From contig SCSP01000104.1 in assembly GCA_004297845.1 (NCBI GenBank), forward strand, positions 1 to 39,991: a stretch of DNA of 39,991 bases, given 5' to 3'. The stretch comes from Bacteroidota bacterium. Lineage in GTDB: Bacteria; Bacteroidota; Bacteroidia; Palsa-948. A model generated the notes under the pieces. It ran no database searches, was not told the origin of the DNA, and saw nothing but the letters and a program-made list of their open reading frames with translations. A program made the translations under genes and the position numbers. Within the stretch, counting starts at the first letter, position 1. Each line of letters begins with the position of its first letter. Shown here one piece after another: positions 1,816 through 39,965 of the stretch.

Positions 1816-1914
1816 ACAGAAAACCTGGGGGCGTCCAGACCGTAGTGCCTGGACTGAGATGAAACCCGTATAACCCAATCGAGATAATGCCTGCGAAGGG
1901 AAAGTGAAGGTTCT
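1816..1914 (+). promoter_or_regulatory. TPP (thiamine pyrophosphate) riboswitch
   Basis: Conserved TPP-aptamer blocks occur in the right order and spacing: GGGGGC (from 1827), CTGAGAT with the pyrimidine-sensing core CTGAGA (1853-1858), ACCC twice (1864-1867 and 1873-1876), GATAATGC (1883-1890) and GCGAAGGGA (1893-1901). AACCT at 1822-1826 can pair with AGGTT at 1908-1912 to close helix P1. It lies 85 bases before thiS on the same strand, which is where a TPP riboswitch is expected. No terminator-like hairpin plus U tract follows; the space between aptamer and thiS is filled by a palindromic repeat (1942-1996). Control at translation initiation is therefore more likely than transcription termination, but this is inference. 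Confidence 0.95.
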
Positions 1915-1941
1915 TCCTCAATTTCTCCTCCGAGTTTTCGC

Positions 1942-1999
1942 CACAGATTACACTGATTTGCACGGAAGAAATCAGTGATGATCTGTGAAATCAGTGGTT
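1942..1999 (+). repeat. Palindromic 5'-UTR hairpin element (copy 1), upstream of thiS
   Basis: CACAGAT (1942-1948) and CACTGATTT (1951-1959) pair with AAATCAGTG (1969-1977) and ATCTGTG (1981-1987) around a 9-base loop, giving a strong hairpin. AAATCAGTG is repeated at 1988-1996, three bases before the thiS ATG at 2000. The 5' arm can thus pair with either copy. Related elements with the same arm order stand before the carbonic anhydrase (8666-8716) and thiE (9373-9426). This points to a dispersed repeat family rather than a gene-specific structure. Confidence 0.8.
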
Positions 2000-2200
2000 A
2001 TGAAATTATTGATCAACTCCGAACTCAAACAATTTTCCGGAAAGAACATTTCCGAACTGGTGCAGTCATTGAACATGACCAGCATCAATGGAATTGCTTT
2101 AGCCGTGAACGAAAAAGTAGTTCCGAAGAATGATTGGGAGAAATTTGAACTGAATAATCATGACAAAATTTTAATCATCAAAGCTGCACAAGGCGGATAG
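2000..2200 (+). CDS. thiS: Sulfur carrier protein ThiS
   Basis: A 66-residue ubiquitin-fold (beta-grasp) protein ending in the diagnostic Gly-Gly, the terminus that ThiF adenylates and converts to a thiocarboxylate. It then delivers sulfur to ThiG for the thiazole ring of thiamine. The family size is 65-70 residues, matching a start at ATG 2000. A GTG start at 1985 would add MKSVV from the flanking repeat and is less likely. The gene follows the TPP riboswitch and so is the first gene of the thiamine locus. The expected partners thiF, thiG and thiH are not in this window, so ThiS must be served by genes elsewhere. The stop codon touches the next palindromic repeat (2200-2287). Confidence 0.93.
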   Translation: MKLLINSELKQFSGKNISELVQSLNMTSINGIALAVNEKVVPKNDWEKFELNNHDKILIIKAAQGG

Positions 2201-5305: not shown

Positions 5306-7261
<1,956 letters not shown>

Positions 7262-7429: not shown

Positions 7430-7936
7430 ATGAAACTAATTGTTGTCTCCTCTCCCACTCCTGTTCCTAACGAACGCGCTACCATCAATTCTTTATTTGA
7501 AGAAGGGGTGGAGGTTTTTCAGATTCATAAACCTGACTTTTCAAAAGAAGAAATTAAAAACTTCATTCAGCAAATTCCCACAAAGTATCACAACAGAATT
7601 GTTTTGCATTCTGATTTTCCGAAATTTCATTCATTGAAAGAACTTGAAGAGTATAAAGAAAAACATGAATATGCTTTCCTCTCTCCAATTTTCGATAGTA
7701 TTTCAAAAAATGGATACAAAAGCAAATTCACCGAGAACAAATCTGAGTTAATCAGTGCAATCAGTGGAAAAAAAATAATTGCATTAGGCGGAATTGACGA
7801 AGACAAAATAGAAATCTGTCGCGAACTCGGCTTTACAGGAGTTGCTGTTCTTGGAGCGATTTGGAAAAATGACAATCCCATTGAAAAATTCAAACGAATA
7901 AAAGCCTTATGCCAAAAGAAAGATCTTGTGTTTTAA
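7430..7936 (+). CDS. thiE: ThiE/TenI-like thiamine phosphate synthase paralogue, internally shortened
   Basis: 168 residues matching the ThiE/TenI TIM-barrel family: FQIHKPDFSKEEI near the N-terminus, YAFLSPIFDSISKNGY in the middle, then ALGGID and the phosphate-binding end GFTGVAVLGAIW. Bacteroidota proteins of this type are usually about 200 residues. Here IVLHSDF runs straight into FHSLKELEE, so about 30-35 residues are missing, including the strand that carries the kGIHl motif. The frame is intact. This looks like a clean in-frame deletion that removes part of the barrel, so catalytic activity is doubtful. A full-length thiE lies at 9427. The 3' end overlaps thiD by 28 bases, implying translational coupling. 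In related genomes such a paralogue beside thiC and thiD is common. Confidence 0.8.
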   Translation: MKLIVVSSPTPVPNERATINSLFEEGVEVFQIHKPDFSKEEIKNFIQQIPTKYHNRIVLHSDFPKFHSLKELEEYKEKHEYAFLSPIFDSISKNGYKSKFTENKSELISAISGKKIIALGGIDEDKIEICRELGFTGVAVLGAIWKNDNPIEKFKRIKALCQKKDLVF

Positions 7937-8661
7937 GCGTTGCCGGCTTTGATCCCAGCGGTGGCGCAGGCGTTCTTGCGGATATCAAAACATTTGAGCA
8001 ACACAAAGTGCAGGGAATGGGCGCTGTCACAGGGTTGACCTTTCAGAACGATTCGGAGTTTGAGGGAGTGAAATGGGTTGATACAGCCGAAATTGAAAAA
8101 CAAATAGAAATTCTTTTCAGAAAATTTAAGTTTGACTTTATAAAGATCGGAATGATCCGCGATCTGGAAGTCCTCGGAAAAATTACAAGCTCCAGACTTC
8201 AAGCCCAAAATCCAAACGTGATATGGGACCCTATCTTGAAAGCCTCAGCGGGATTTGAAATTCATAAAACGATTGACAAAAAGAAAGTGATTGATATTTG
8301 CAGTAGTATTTACCTCATTACTCCCAATGCGGATGAAGTAAAAATTCTGACAGGAGAAAATGACGAAGTAAAAGGAGCGAAAGAACTATCCCAATATTGT
8401 AATGTTCTCTTAAAAGGCGGTCATAGCGAAAAAAATAAAGCGAAAGATCATTTATTTACAACTGAAGGAAAAGTATTTCCATTTCGTCCTAAGAAAATCT
8501 CCCCCATGGGAAAACACGGTAGCGGGTGTGTGCTTTCCTCCGCTATAACTGCAAACCTGGCAAATGGTTTATCTTTGCAGCGCGCTTGTTTGAGAGGAAA
8601 AGATTATGTAACGAAGTTCATAATGAGCAATAAATCATTATTAGGCCATCATAAAATATAG
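7909..8661 (+). CDS. thiD: Hydroxymethylpyrimidine/phosphomethylpyrimidine kinase ThiD
   Basis: A 250-residue ribokinase-fold enzyme that phosphorylates HMP and HMP-P to HMP-PP, the pyrimidine substrate of ThiE. Family marks are SVAGFDPSGGAGVLADIKTF at the N-terminus (substrate site), WDPILKASAG, ITPNADEVKILTG, LLKGGH, and the anion-hole/catalytic loop GKHGSGCVLSSAI near residues 203-215, where GSGC replaces the more common GTGC. The start at ATG 7909 lies inside the end of the preceding thiE-like gene. No SD is needed if translation is coupled. Length is slightly below the family's ~265 but covers all motifs. A palindromic repeat begins a few bases after the stop. Confidence 0.95.
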   Translation: MPKERSCVLSVAGFDPSGGAGVLADIKTFEQHKVQGMGAVTGLTFQNDSEFEGVKWVDTAEIEKQIEILFRKFKFDFIKIGMIRDLEVLGKITSSRLQAQNPNVIWDPILKASAGFEIHKTIDKKKVIDICSSIYLITPNADEVKILTGENDEVKGAKELSQYCNVLLKGGHSEKNKAKDHLFTTEGKVFPFRPKKISPMGKHGSGCVLSSAITANLANGLSLQRACLRGKDYVTKFIMSNKSLLGHHKI

Positions 8662-8665
8662 TCGC

Positions 8666-8716
8666 GAATTTCACTAATTAACACGAATGAATTAGTGTAA
8701 ATTCATGTAATTAGTG
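8666..8716 (+). repeat. Palindromic 5'-UTR hairpin element (copy 2), upstream of carbonic anhydrase
   Basis: GAATTT (8666-8671) and CACTAATT (8672-8679) pair with AATTAGTG (8690-8697) and AAATTC (8699-8704), with one bulged T. AATTAGTG recurs at 8709-8716, followed by GCT, as in the copies at 1942 and 9373. The start codon is at 8731. The arm sequence differs from the other copies, yet pairing is preserved, so the structure appears to be what is conserved. Confidence 0.75.
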
Positions 8717-8730
8717 GCTAAAAGTATATC

Positions 8731-9369
8731 ATGGAAAAACTTTATCAAAAACTTCTGCAGGGCAACAAAGACTGGGTTGCCAAAAAATTAAAAGAAGATC
8801 CGGAGTTTTTTAAAGAGCTTGCAGCAGGTCAGCAGCCCGGTGTGCTCTGGATCGGATGTTCCGACAGCCGCGTTCCTGCCAATGAAATCACAGGAACAAA
8901 ATCAGGCGAGGTATTCGTACACCGCAACATCGCCAACATGGTGGTGCATACCGACACAAATATGTTGAGTGTGCTGGATTTCGCTGTTAATCTTCTGGAA
9001 GTACAGCATGTAATTGTATGCGGGCATTACGGATGTGGAGGAATTCAGGCTGCTATGAGCAACAAGCATTATGGCGGAATTATTGACAATTGGTTGAGAA
9101 ATATTAAGGACGTATATCGCCTTCATAACAAAGAACTGGATGGGATAAAGACCTCTGATATGCGCGATAGAAAATTAACCGAACTAAATATTGTTGAACA
9201 AGTTTACAACCTCTGCAAAACCTCCATTGTTCAGAGCGCCTGGGAAAATCACAAACGCCCGCATGTGCATGGATGGGTGTATGATGTGAGCAACGGATTG
9301 ATAAAAGATTTGAATATTACTGTGCGGGATGATTCGGAGATGCATAATATTTACAAAATAGATTTTTAA
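8731..9369 (+). CDS. can: Beta-class carbonic anhydrase
   Basis: A 212-residue zinc enzyme interconverting CO2 and bicarbonate in the cytoplasm. The zinc ligands are visible: Cys43 in the CSDSR motif (with the Asp45-Arg47 dyad), then His99 and Cys102 in CGHYGCGG. The length and the segment IDNWLRNIKDVYRLH resemble E. coli Can. It sits between thiD and thiE, each junction carrying a copy of the hairpin repeat. It therefore may be an insertion into the thiamine locus or simply share its transcript. No direct role in thiamine synthesis is known for the family. Confidence 0.95.
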   Translation: MEKLYQKLLQGNKDWVAKKLKEDPEFFKELAAGQQPGVLWIGCSDSRVPANEITGTKSGEVFVHRNIANMVVHTDTNMLSVLDFAVNLLEVQHVIVCGHYGCGGIQAAMSNKHYGGIIDNWLRNIKDVYRLHNKELDGIKTSDMRDRKLTELNIVEQVYNLCKTSIVQSAWENHKRPHVHGWVYDVSNGLIKDLNITVRDDSEMHNIYKIDF

Positions 9370-9372
9370 CCG

Positions 9373-9426
9373 CTGATTACACAGATTAACACCGATTAAT
9401 CTGTGTAATCAGTGAAATCTGTGGCT
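9373..9426 (+). repeat. Palindromic 5'-UTR hairpin element (copy 3), upstream of thiE
   Basis: CTGATTACACAGATTA (9373-9388) pairs without mismatch with TAATCTGTGTAATCAG (9397-9412): a 16-bp stem and 8-base loop. AATCTGTG is repeated at 9416-9423, directly before GCT and the thiE ATG at 9427. This is the most perfect of the three copies and probably the youngest or best maintained. Confidence 0.88.
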
Positions 9427-30945: not shown

Positions 30946-32322
30946 ATGAGAGAGTTTATTTCATTCCAGATATATGATGTTGCTCTATTCAAAAAACAGC
31001 TGTTAAAATGGTGTGCTCATTTTCCCAAATACTGTGTTTTAGACAGCAACCTGTGGAGCGGAAGCGATAACGAGTTAATGGCTGCTGCCGGATCTGTGAA
31101 TGAAATAACTCCTGAGAATAATTCCTTTGAGGAACTGAAGAAATTTCATGCGGCAAAAAAAGACTGGCTGTTCGGGTACCTATCCTACGACCTGAAGAAC
31201 GAAACGGAAAATTTAAGCTCCGGAAATTTTGATGGGATTGGTTTTCCGCAGATGCATTTTTTTCAGCCGGAGTATATTTTTATTCTGCGGGGGGACAAAT
31301 TGGAGATACAGTATTTAAGTGAATTATCATCTGAAAAGGAAGTCGAAAATATCTTTAATGAAATAGACAGAATACAGAATACAGCATACAGAAGCCCCCA
31401 CCGGTCATCCGTTAAAAGCAGCCTATCAAAAATGGAGTATCTCCATGCCGTCAATAAAATAAAACACCACATCCGTCTGGGCGATGTTTACGAAATGAAC
31501 TACTGTATGGAGTTCTTTGCCGAAGAGGCGGTAATAGATCCGGCACAGGTTTTTCTGAAACTGAGCGAGGCTTCACAGTCCCCCTTTTCGGCTTTTTACC
31601 GGAGCGATGATAAATACCTGATGTGCGCCAGCCCTGAAAGGTTTTTGAAAAAAGAAGGAAACAAAATCATTTCCCAGCCTATCAAAGGCACCGCTAAAAG
31701 AGGCAGAACGGATTCGGAAGATAATGAAATTAAAAGCCTGCTTGGACAAAATGAAAAAGAAAAAAGCGAAAATGTAATGATCGTTGACCTGGTCAGAAAT
31801 GACCTTTCAAAGTCCTGCAACAACGTAACCGTTGATGAGCTTTTTGGTGTTTATACTTTTAAACAATGGCACCAGATGATATCAACCGTAAGCGGCACCC
31901 TGCGCGAGGGGGTAGATTTTACAGAGGTGATCAAAAATTCTTTCCCTATGGGATCCATGACCGGTGCGCCCAAAGTGCGCGCCATGGAACTGATAGAACA
32001 ATATGAAAAAACAAAACGAGGGTTGTATGCAGGATCGGTGGGATACCTAAGCCCACCTCACCCCCAACCCCTCTCCAAAGGAGAGGAGAGTGAAAACAGC
32101 CAGGTGAATTTTGACTTCAACGTAGTAATCCGAAGCATCCTTTATAACCAAAGCACAAAATATTTATCCTTTCAGGCAGGGAGCGCCATCACTGCAAATT
32201 CCGTTCCTGAACAGGAATATGAAGAATGTTTGCTGAAAGCAAAGGGAATGTTTGAAGCGCTGAGTATTTCTGCGAAACCGTTATCTGTTAATAGTTATTC
32301 GTCAATAGAAACGACTCCATAG
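30946..32322 (+). CDS. pabB: Aminodeoxychorismate synthase component I
   Basis: 458 residues of the chorismate-utilising family. It makes 4-amino-4-deoxychorismate for folate. PIKGTAKRG at ~245-253 has the Lys typical of PabB where TrpE has Ala. Other motifs are ENVMIVDLVRNDL, GSMTGAPKVRAMELIE near 336 and FQAGSAITANSVPEQEYEE. Residues ~369-386 (PHPQPLSKGEESENSQ and flanks) are an in-frame insertion from a GC-rich palindrome, splitting the normal GYLSP-x-FDFNVVIRS junction. The C-terminal tail beyond FEALSI (about 20 residues) is encoded by one arm of an inverted repeat and is unlike the family end. tilS follows 54 bases downstream; no pabA or pabC is seen. Confidence 0.94.
   Translation: MREFISFQIYDVALFKKQLLKWCAHFPKYCVLDSNLWSGSDNELMAAAGSVNEITPENNSFEELKKFHAAKKDWLFGYLSYDLKNETENLSSGNFDGIGFPQMHFFQPEYIFILRGDKLEIQYLSELSSEKEVENIFNEIDRIQNTAYRSPHRSSVKSSLSKMEYLHAVNKIKHHIRLGDVYEMNYCMEFFAEEAVIDPAQVFLKLSEASQSPFSAFYRSDDKYLMCASPERFLKKEGNKIISQPIKGTAKRGRTDSEDNEIKSLLGQNEKEKSENVMIVDLVRNDLSKSCNNVTVDELFGVYTFKQWHQMISTVSGTLREGVDFTEVIKNSFPMGSMTGAPKVRAMELIEQYEKTKRGLYAGSVGYLSPPHPQPLSKGEESENSQVNFDFNVVIRSILYNQSTKYLSFQAGSAITANSVPEQEYEECLLKAKGMFEALSISAKPLSVNSYSSIETTP
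32055..32092. repeat. GC-rich palindromic insert inside pabB
   Basis: CCTCTCC (32070-32076), AAA loop, GGAGAGG (32080-32086), preceded by CCTCACCCCCAACC. It has the same orientation and loop as thiC insertion 2 but is read in a different frame, giving PHPQPLSKGEE instead of [11 protein letters not shown]. Confidence 0.88.
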
Positions 32323-39753: not shown

Positions 39754-39883
39754 GATTGATTTGTTTTTAGCCCGAAGAAAATATTTCCCATCGGGTTTAA
39801 TTTGTGTTTGATTTTTTTATTCTGCGAATATATACCTTTTATTATACTATGCGCGGGATAAATTTATACACATGCACAATATG

Positions 39884-39965
39884 GTACAGATAACAGATAA
39901 ACACAGATTTTCAGATAAACAGCCATCTCTAATCTGTAAATCTGCAAAAAATCTGTTATCTGTAC
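39884..39965. repeat. About 82-bp palindromic element (copy 2)
   Basis: Perfect 15-bp terminal inverted repeats: GTACAGATAACAGAT (39884-39898) and ATCTGTTATCTGTAC (39951-39965). Its reverse complement aligns with the copy at 2200-2287 across the interior, including CAGATTTACAGA and ATGGCTG. It lies upstream of the T9SS gene at the right edge of the window and contains no ORF. Confidence 0.85.

Follow-up and report, generated by a model that had tools for sequence, protein, structure and literature searches.

The spacer between the TPP aptamer and thiS in the genome studied here carries a copy of a dispersed, MITE-like palindrome that lies directly before the start codon and probably folds on itself without acting as a switch. 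In the account that we favor, with a probability of roughly two in three for the whole, the competitor of aptamer helix P1 is a separate strand upstream of the repeat (anti-P1), and TPP control of thiS has been weakened or lost. The window analyzed, a stretch of 39,991 nucleotides, belongs to an uncultured member of the Bacteroidota, and the nearest named ThiC loci are those of Bacteroidetes MAGs, Pedobacter and Sporocytophaga. It contains, in order, a TPP-aptamer-like segment, the spacer, thiS, thiC, a short thiE-like gene, thiD, a carbonic anhydrase gene (CA) and thiE. Six congeneric genomes (G001–G006) were compared with the present genome (G000). The initial annotation of thiS, a gene of 66 codons with its ATG at 2000–2002, was borne out by a Pfam match and by the same start in the congeners. 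The features discussed below are listed in Table 1.

Table 1. Features of the thiS leader and copies of the repeat in the window.
Feature	Position	Strand	Basis or remark
TPP aptamer, Rfam RF00059, degraded in P1, P2, P4 and P5	1817..1918	+	cmscan 45.1 bits, E 8e-8
P1/P2 5′ strand GAAAACCUGGGGG, predicted partner of anti-P1	1819..1831	+	pairs in the ligand-free MFE
Anti-P1 element CCUCCGAGUUUUC, likely expression platform	1927..1939	+	MFE; comparable duplexes in other thiS leaders of the class
Dispersed palindromic repeat, family A	1940..1998	+	64.8 bits with model R2, built without thiS copies
Predicted 18-bp hairpin, 1942-1959 with 1969-1987, one bulge	1942..1987	+	pair probabilities of at least 0.957
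Third module AAATCAGTG	1988..1996	+	predicted main partner thiS codons 2-5 (1990-1999 with 2004-2013), AUG in the loop
thiS	2000..2200	+	Pfam ThiS, E 6e-11; start consistent with congeners
Second copy of the repeat in the window	8661..8718	+	between thiD and CA, 12 nt 5′ of the CA ATG
Third copy of the repeat in the window	9369..9425	+	fills the gap from the CA stop to the thiE ATG, 1 nt before the ATG

The only convincing TPP match in the genome is the one at the thi locus, on the same strand as, and 5′ of, a thiamin gene. Its homology to RF00059 (the THI element) is clear from the E-value of the match and from the locus, which it shares with intact aptamers of the congeners. It has the segment order and core of the family, including CUGAGA and UAAUGCCUGCGAAGGGA, and precedes a thiS that heads a thi cluster. 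It differs from the family in its score, which lies below the gathering cut-off of 54.3 bits, while the aptamers at the same locus in the six congeners exceed it (67.9–74.0 bits). No family reached its gathering score in an Rfam scan of the window, and the TPP match appeared only in the scan by E-value. Of the 23 aligned pairs, 16 are standard (19–23 in the congeners) and 7 are non-standard, the losses falling in P1, P2, P4 and P5. In an aptamer-only transcript, ending at P1 and before the downstream competitor, the consensus pairs had a mean probability of 0.05, compared with 0.26–0.74 in the congeners, and enforcing the consensus cost 17.5 kcal/mol, compared with 4.9–9.4 kcal/mol (ViennaRNA energies, in which ligand and tertiary contacts are not included). 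By pair count and mean probability, the P1/P2/P3/P4–P5 fold of RF00059 is improbable for this aptamer on its own.

The aptamer had initially been described as complete, at 1816–1914. All of its segments are there, but it is not intact, and we regard it as homologous and probably damaged, its sequence being that of one draft genome in which a local assembly error is possible. These losses in P1, P2, P4 and P5 make it probable that in this species thiS is under weak TPP control or has escaped it. Immediately 5′ of the aptamer, a segment at 1784–1816 (TTTG ... CATCTTTG), similar in the congeners, looks like a Bacteroidota promoter and would place the transcript start at the 5′ end of the aptamer.

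Downstream of the aptamer, the 5′ arm CACTGATTT at 1951–1959 has a perfect complement at both 1969–1977 and 1988–1996, the outer one ending three bases 5′ of the thiS ATG, exactly as the initial annotation had reported. This arm–loop–arm pattern occurs once in the window, with 0.04 occurrences expected. The same annotation had seen 9-nt arms with two possible pairings. Both can be drawn, but the repeat is longer (1940–1998) and its inner hairpin has 18 bp, so that the two are not of similar strength. The pair probabilities of the hairpin were alike with the aptamer free or enforced, and the alternative pairing of 1951–1959 with 1988–1996 had a predicted probability of about 1e-5 with the aptamer free and less than 1e-5 with it enforced. 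The third module is thus predicted almost never to pair with 1951–1959. In the predicted folds, the aptamer did not overlap the repeat and none of its strands paired with it, and no mutual exclusion between an aptamer strand and the repeat was found. In the thiS mRNA, the repeat would fold into its hairpin whatever the state of the aptamer, which argues that it is not a switch.

It is very improbable, on this evidence, that TPP binding selects whether 1951–1959 pairs with 1969–1977 or with 1988–1996. The perfect complementarity of both partners speaks for such a choice, as do the leader of G004, which is laid out like the present one (CACTAATT with two AATTAGTG copies), and that of G005, in which the outer copy is the best match of the 5′ arm. 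Besides the predicted probabilities, the lack of any contact with the aptamer and the degradation of the aptamer itself, what weighs against it is that the second partner appears to be a matter of repeat design. The third AAATCAGTG is above chance, yet comparison of copies identifies it as the outermost of the three modules that make up an arm throughout the family. Pairing in two places by one 7-mer is possible in 23 of 44 family copies, far from riboswitches, and by one 8-mer in 15 of the 44; since the modules are nearly identical, pairing in two registers is a trait of the family. Covariation of both pairings in G000, G004 and G005 was rejected as evidence for a switch, because any copy of a self-similar palindrome, including that of G004, would show it, because the insertions may be independent, and because the G005 copy is weak. 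The initial proposal of the repeat as expression platform is not supported, its alternative pairing being predicted at about 1e-5 or less and unresponsive to the aptamer. An appealing switch model can, in other words, come from a repeat whose modular design provides several pairing registers wherever it is inserted. The remaining Rfam matches of the repeat, to microRNA and snoRNA families, had E-values of 0.7 and above and were set aside as chance.

The switching element is more likely the anti-P1 strand at 1927–1939. In the ligand-free MFE structure, 1819–1824 pairs with 1934–1939 and 1826–1831 with 1927–1932, a pairing incompatible with aptamer helices P1 and P2. Among 18 aptamers of the class with thiS as the next gene, the duplex between P1 and the spacer was stronger than with shuffled spacers (z < -1.64) in 13, with a mean z of -2.6; the duplex of the present leader has -12.0 kcal/mol and a z of -1.5. 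Matched changes on both sides of such duplexes were found within the class, for example ACUUUAG/CUAAAGU, GUAAAGACAAAGGG/CCUUUGUAUUUAC and, in a leader other than that of thiS, UAAUACAGGG/CCUGUAUUA. Most congeners also showed anti-P1 pairing when folded without ligand, and the free MFE ensemble of G005 contained none. An intrinsic terminator was ruled out as the platform: as the initial annotation had also noted, there is none ahead of thiS, and no terminator-like site was found on the + strand in 1650–2350.

The 3′ end of the anti-P1 element (1939) abuts the start of the repeat (1940), which places the repeat downstream of the likely platform and argues that it is not the platform itself. The initial annotation had suggested a comparison with thiS leaders of relatives lacking the repeat; the anti-P1 element was found in those leaders too, which counts against the repeat as platform. 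The related suggestion that a mobile repeat was recruited as the switch is likewise disfavored, both by the upstream anti-P1 element, which repeat-free relatives share, and by the presence of the repeat before start codons throughout the genus. Without TPP, the anti-P1 strand would pair with the 5′ strand of P1/P2, and TPP binding would free it; in relatives lacking the repeat, the freed strand could then fold onto the start region. In the present leader, the hairpin would separate anti-P1 from the start, and exposure of the AUG is predicted to be equal in both states.

Predicted exposure of the start codon agreed with this picture. With the repeat, the mean unpaired probability of the AUG was 0.98–1.00, aptamer free or enforced; after removal of the repeat in silico it was 0.73–0.84 in the free state and 0.38–0.39 in the bound state. 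The repeat therefore makes AUG exposure independent of the aptamer in silico, and ‘disconnected’ describes its effect better than ‘recruited’. The calculation is weak evidence for uncoupling, since in several congeners, with or without a repeat, the response of the start region to an enforced aptamer was small or inconsistent. The folding method yields no clean OFF switch even for congeners with a strong aptamer, and it leaves out the ribosome, the order of folding during transcription, tertiary contacts and the energy of TPP binding. In Bacteroidota, which have no Shine-Dalgarno sequences, translation responds to structure near the start (PMC6847099), so that a hairpin and a start-codon stem should matter here.

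If the repeat were instead a neutral self-folding spacer, anti-P1 would still reach the start and TPP control would work. With the aptamer enforced, anti-P1 is indeed predicted to pair with the early thiS codons, enclosing the repeat hairpin (GAGUUU around 1932–1937 with GAACUC in the opening codons), and strong aptamers persist in congeners that carry a repeat in this position. We consider this reading unlikely given that the predicted AUG exposure is unchanged in the present genome, and that among the genomes compared only the present one has a degraded aptamer.

Comparison of the thiS spacers of the seven genomes separates the fate of the repeat from that of the aptamer. Members of the family were found in three spacers, an unrelated repeat in two, and no recognized repeat in the other two (G001 and G003). 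The family lies between anti-P1 and the thiS ATG in the present genome, in G004 and, decayed, in G005; with model R2, the copies scored 64.8, 55.3 and 21 bits, respectively, the last being a weak match (E 0.03). The spacers of G002 and G006 contain the unrelated dispersed repeat CACCCTGAGCG(A/T)AGTCGAAGGG. The aptamers of G004 (67.9 bits) and G005 (72.4 bits) are strong with the repeat at the same place, and the repeat alone therefore does not explain the decay seen here. An uncoupling of the aptamer from thiS by the repeat, raised at the outset, has some in silico support from the AUG exposure and the aptamer decay in this species, but not from these two congeners, and the repeat may be either cause or consequence of the decay. 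In the rpoB tree, the genomes group as (G001,G005), (G000,G002) and (G004,G006) with G003. Set against the distribution of the repeats, this grouping suggests that repeats at the thiS site came and went; on this tree, the three family copies would reflect either a single gain followed by three losses or as many as three separate gains. The seven leaders, with one family, another repeat or none, provide a natural comparison for how well a riboswitch tolerates inserted hairpins.

Judged by sequence, the segment at 1940–1998 belongs to a family of dispersed, modular palindromes that resemble MITEs and measure about 59 bp; each arm consists of three similar modules of 9–11 nt. Copy numbers were obtained by searching the genomes with two models, R1, which contained the thiS copies and is thus circular for them, and R2, which was built solely from copies outside thiS. 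The present genome has about 19 places at E ≤ 0.001 with R2 and about 28 at E ≤ 0.1 with R1, two of them elsewhere in the window, which bears out the initial description of the repeat as dispersed. Distribution over the class is patchy, with matches at E ≤ 1e-4 in 33 of the 100 genomes. As is typical of MITEs, the elements end in inverted repeats, are present in multiple copies and are missing from corresponding sites of relatives; the thiD–CA and CA–thiE junctions of G001, G005 and G006 carry no repeat. A family copy lies directly 5′ of thiE in G004 (L195, 1459–1516), and none is there in G001, G005 or G006.

A further shared site was found 2 nt 5′ of the ATG of a gene in G000, G002 and G006 (L187 816–889, L217 801–858 and L224 819–878) whose product, which has no Pfam match, looks like a membrane subunit of the SdhC type. 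The G006 copy there matches the G002 copy in reverse-complement orientation, an apparent inversion. The G000 copy (L187) has the palindrome CCCGATAGCTATCGGGA nested within it. TA flanks the genus copies on both sides in 9 of 46 and on one side in 19, counts that are inflated by stop codons and TATG starts; the flanks of the thiS copy are TC and TA. No parent transposase with matching ends was found: IS630 was ruled out, there being no DDE_3 (IS630 type) gene in G000 or G004, and an origin as a REP/RAYT product was ruled out because palindromes of the family do not flank the 20 Y1_Tnp loci, with 0 family matches in flanks of about 1.5 kb.

The placement of the repeat at thiS is typical, since copies in the genus hug start codons. 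An ATG was counted as a start if its reading frame ran for 70 codons or more, in simple frames and not in curated annotation, and the controls were TA sites from the non-coding portions of the window. Of the 46 genus copies, 33 lie within 20 nt of an ATG, compared with 35 of 225 control sites, and 14 lie within 2 nt, compared with none of the 225. Without the three copies at the 66-codon thiS, the numbers are 30 and 11. When orthologous sites were collapsed, 28 of 41 remained within 20 nt (p 2e-11) and 9 of 41 within 2 nt (p 2e-8). In about one-third of cases (16 of 46), the copy occupies the interval from a stop codon to the start that follows, as at 9369–9425. By these frames, the repeat is habitually located directly 5′ of start codons in this genus. 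Forty related copies in seven other genomes of the class showed no such bias, with 9 within 20 nt (56 of 283 controls) and none within 2 nt. The repeat thus adds to a known kind of element, and what sets it apart is its clustering at start codons in this one genus.

This placement could reflect a role of the repeat itself at start sites, independent of TPP, for example as an RNase III site, an mRNA stabilizer or a hairpin for translational coupling in operons. The strength of the bias, the copies filling stop–start gaps and the same-site copies at the SdhC-like genes of three species, one of them inverted, point in this direction, as do the Correia elements of Neisseria, which are MITEs reported to lie mostly directly 5′ of genes, to be able to invert in place and to be cut by RNase III (PMC10969869). 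We consider it quite improbable as the explanation at thiS, because placement may merely mirror tolerated or targeted insertion, congeners do without the repeat at thiS, thiE and CA, and the related repeats of other genera show no start bias. A broader reading, in which the palindrome was targeted to or selected at starts in the genus, repeatedly replaced leaders (thi, sdhC-like and others) and so uncoupled the riboswitch of one species, is doubtful. Start-adjacent placement in one genus and not in others poses a testable question on insertion targeting versus selection, set in bacteria without Shine-Dalgarno sequences.

Among known systems, Correia elements share with the present repeat its character as a small dispersed inverted repeat, its placement at gene starts and the apparent same-site inversion (PMC10969869). 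They differ in length (204 bp compared with about 59 bp) and in lacking the three-module arms, in a comparison made by description, and no parent transposase was found for the present repeat among DDE_3 genes of G000 and G004 or at the Y1_Tnp loci. RUP and BOX of Streptococcus pneumoniae and ERIC of enterobacteria are likewise intergenic, palindromic, dispersed and nested (PMC10969869 and general knowledge), but have other sequences and hosts, and mobility of the present repeat is putative. For BOX elements, riboswitch-like motifs have been raised merely as a possibility (review PMC10969869), and within our incomplete coverage of the literature we found no description of a TPP expression platform formed by a dispersed repeat. 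REP elements are also short dispersed palindromes, and RAYT-like genes (Y1_Tnp) occur in the genus; unlike REP elements, however, the family has no copy near the 20 Y1_Tnp loci, and G005, with intact RAYT-like genes, has almost no copies.

Several other repeats were observed. A second, larger palindromic family, GAACGC(T/A)GATGACGC...GCGTCATCTGCGTTC, was matched by R1 mainly in G004 and G005, at loci including L205, L207, L209, L211, L229 and L230; it is not start-adjacent like family A. A pair of similar CAGATAACAGATT...AATCTGTTATCTGTAC repeats, of a separate family, is located just after thiS (2200–2290) and near the end of the window (39883–39965). At 7735–7767, within the short thiE-like gene, AAATCTGAGTTAATCAGTGCAATCAGTGG is like the 3′ arm of the repeat, which may be chance. 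Repeats of another type, CCTCACCC..CCCTCTCC, occur within the thiC frame (5465–5510, 5832–5863 and 5906–5951), with a further copy at 32055–32086. They insert in-frame stretches into ThiC, for example of 24 and 14 residues; the same loop contains other insertions in G002 and G005, and in G004 and G006, where it is missing, ThiC is shorter.
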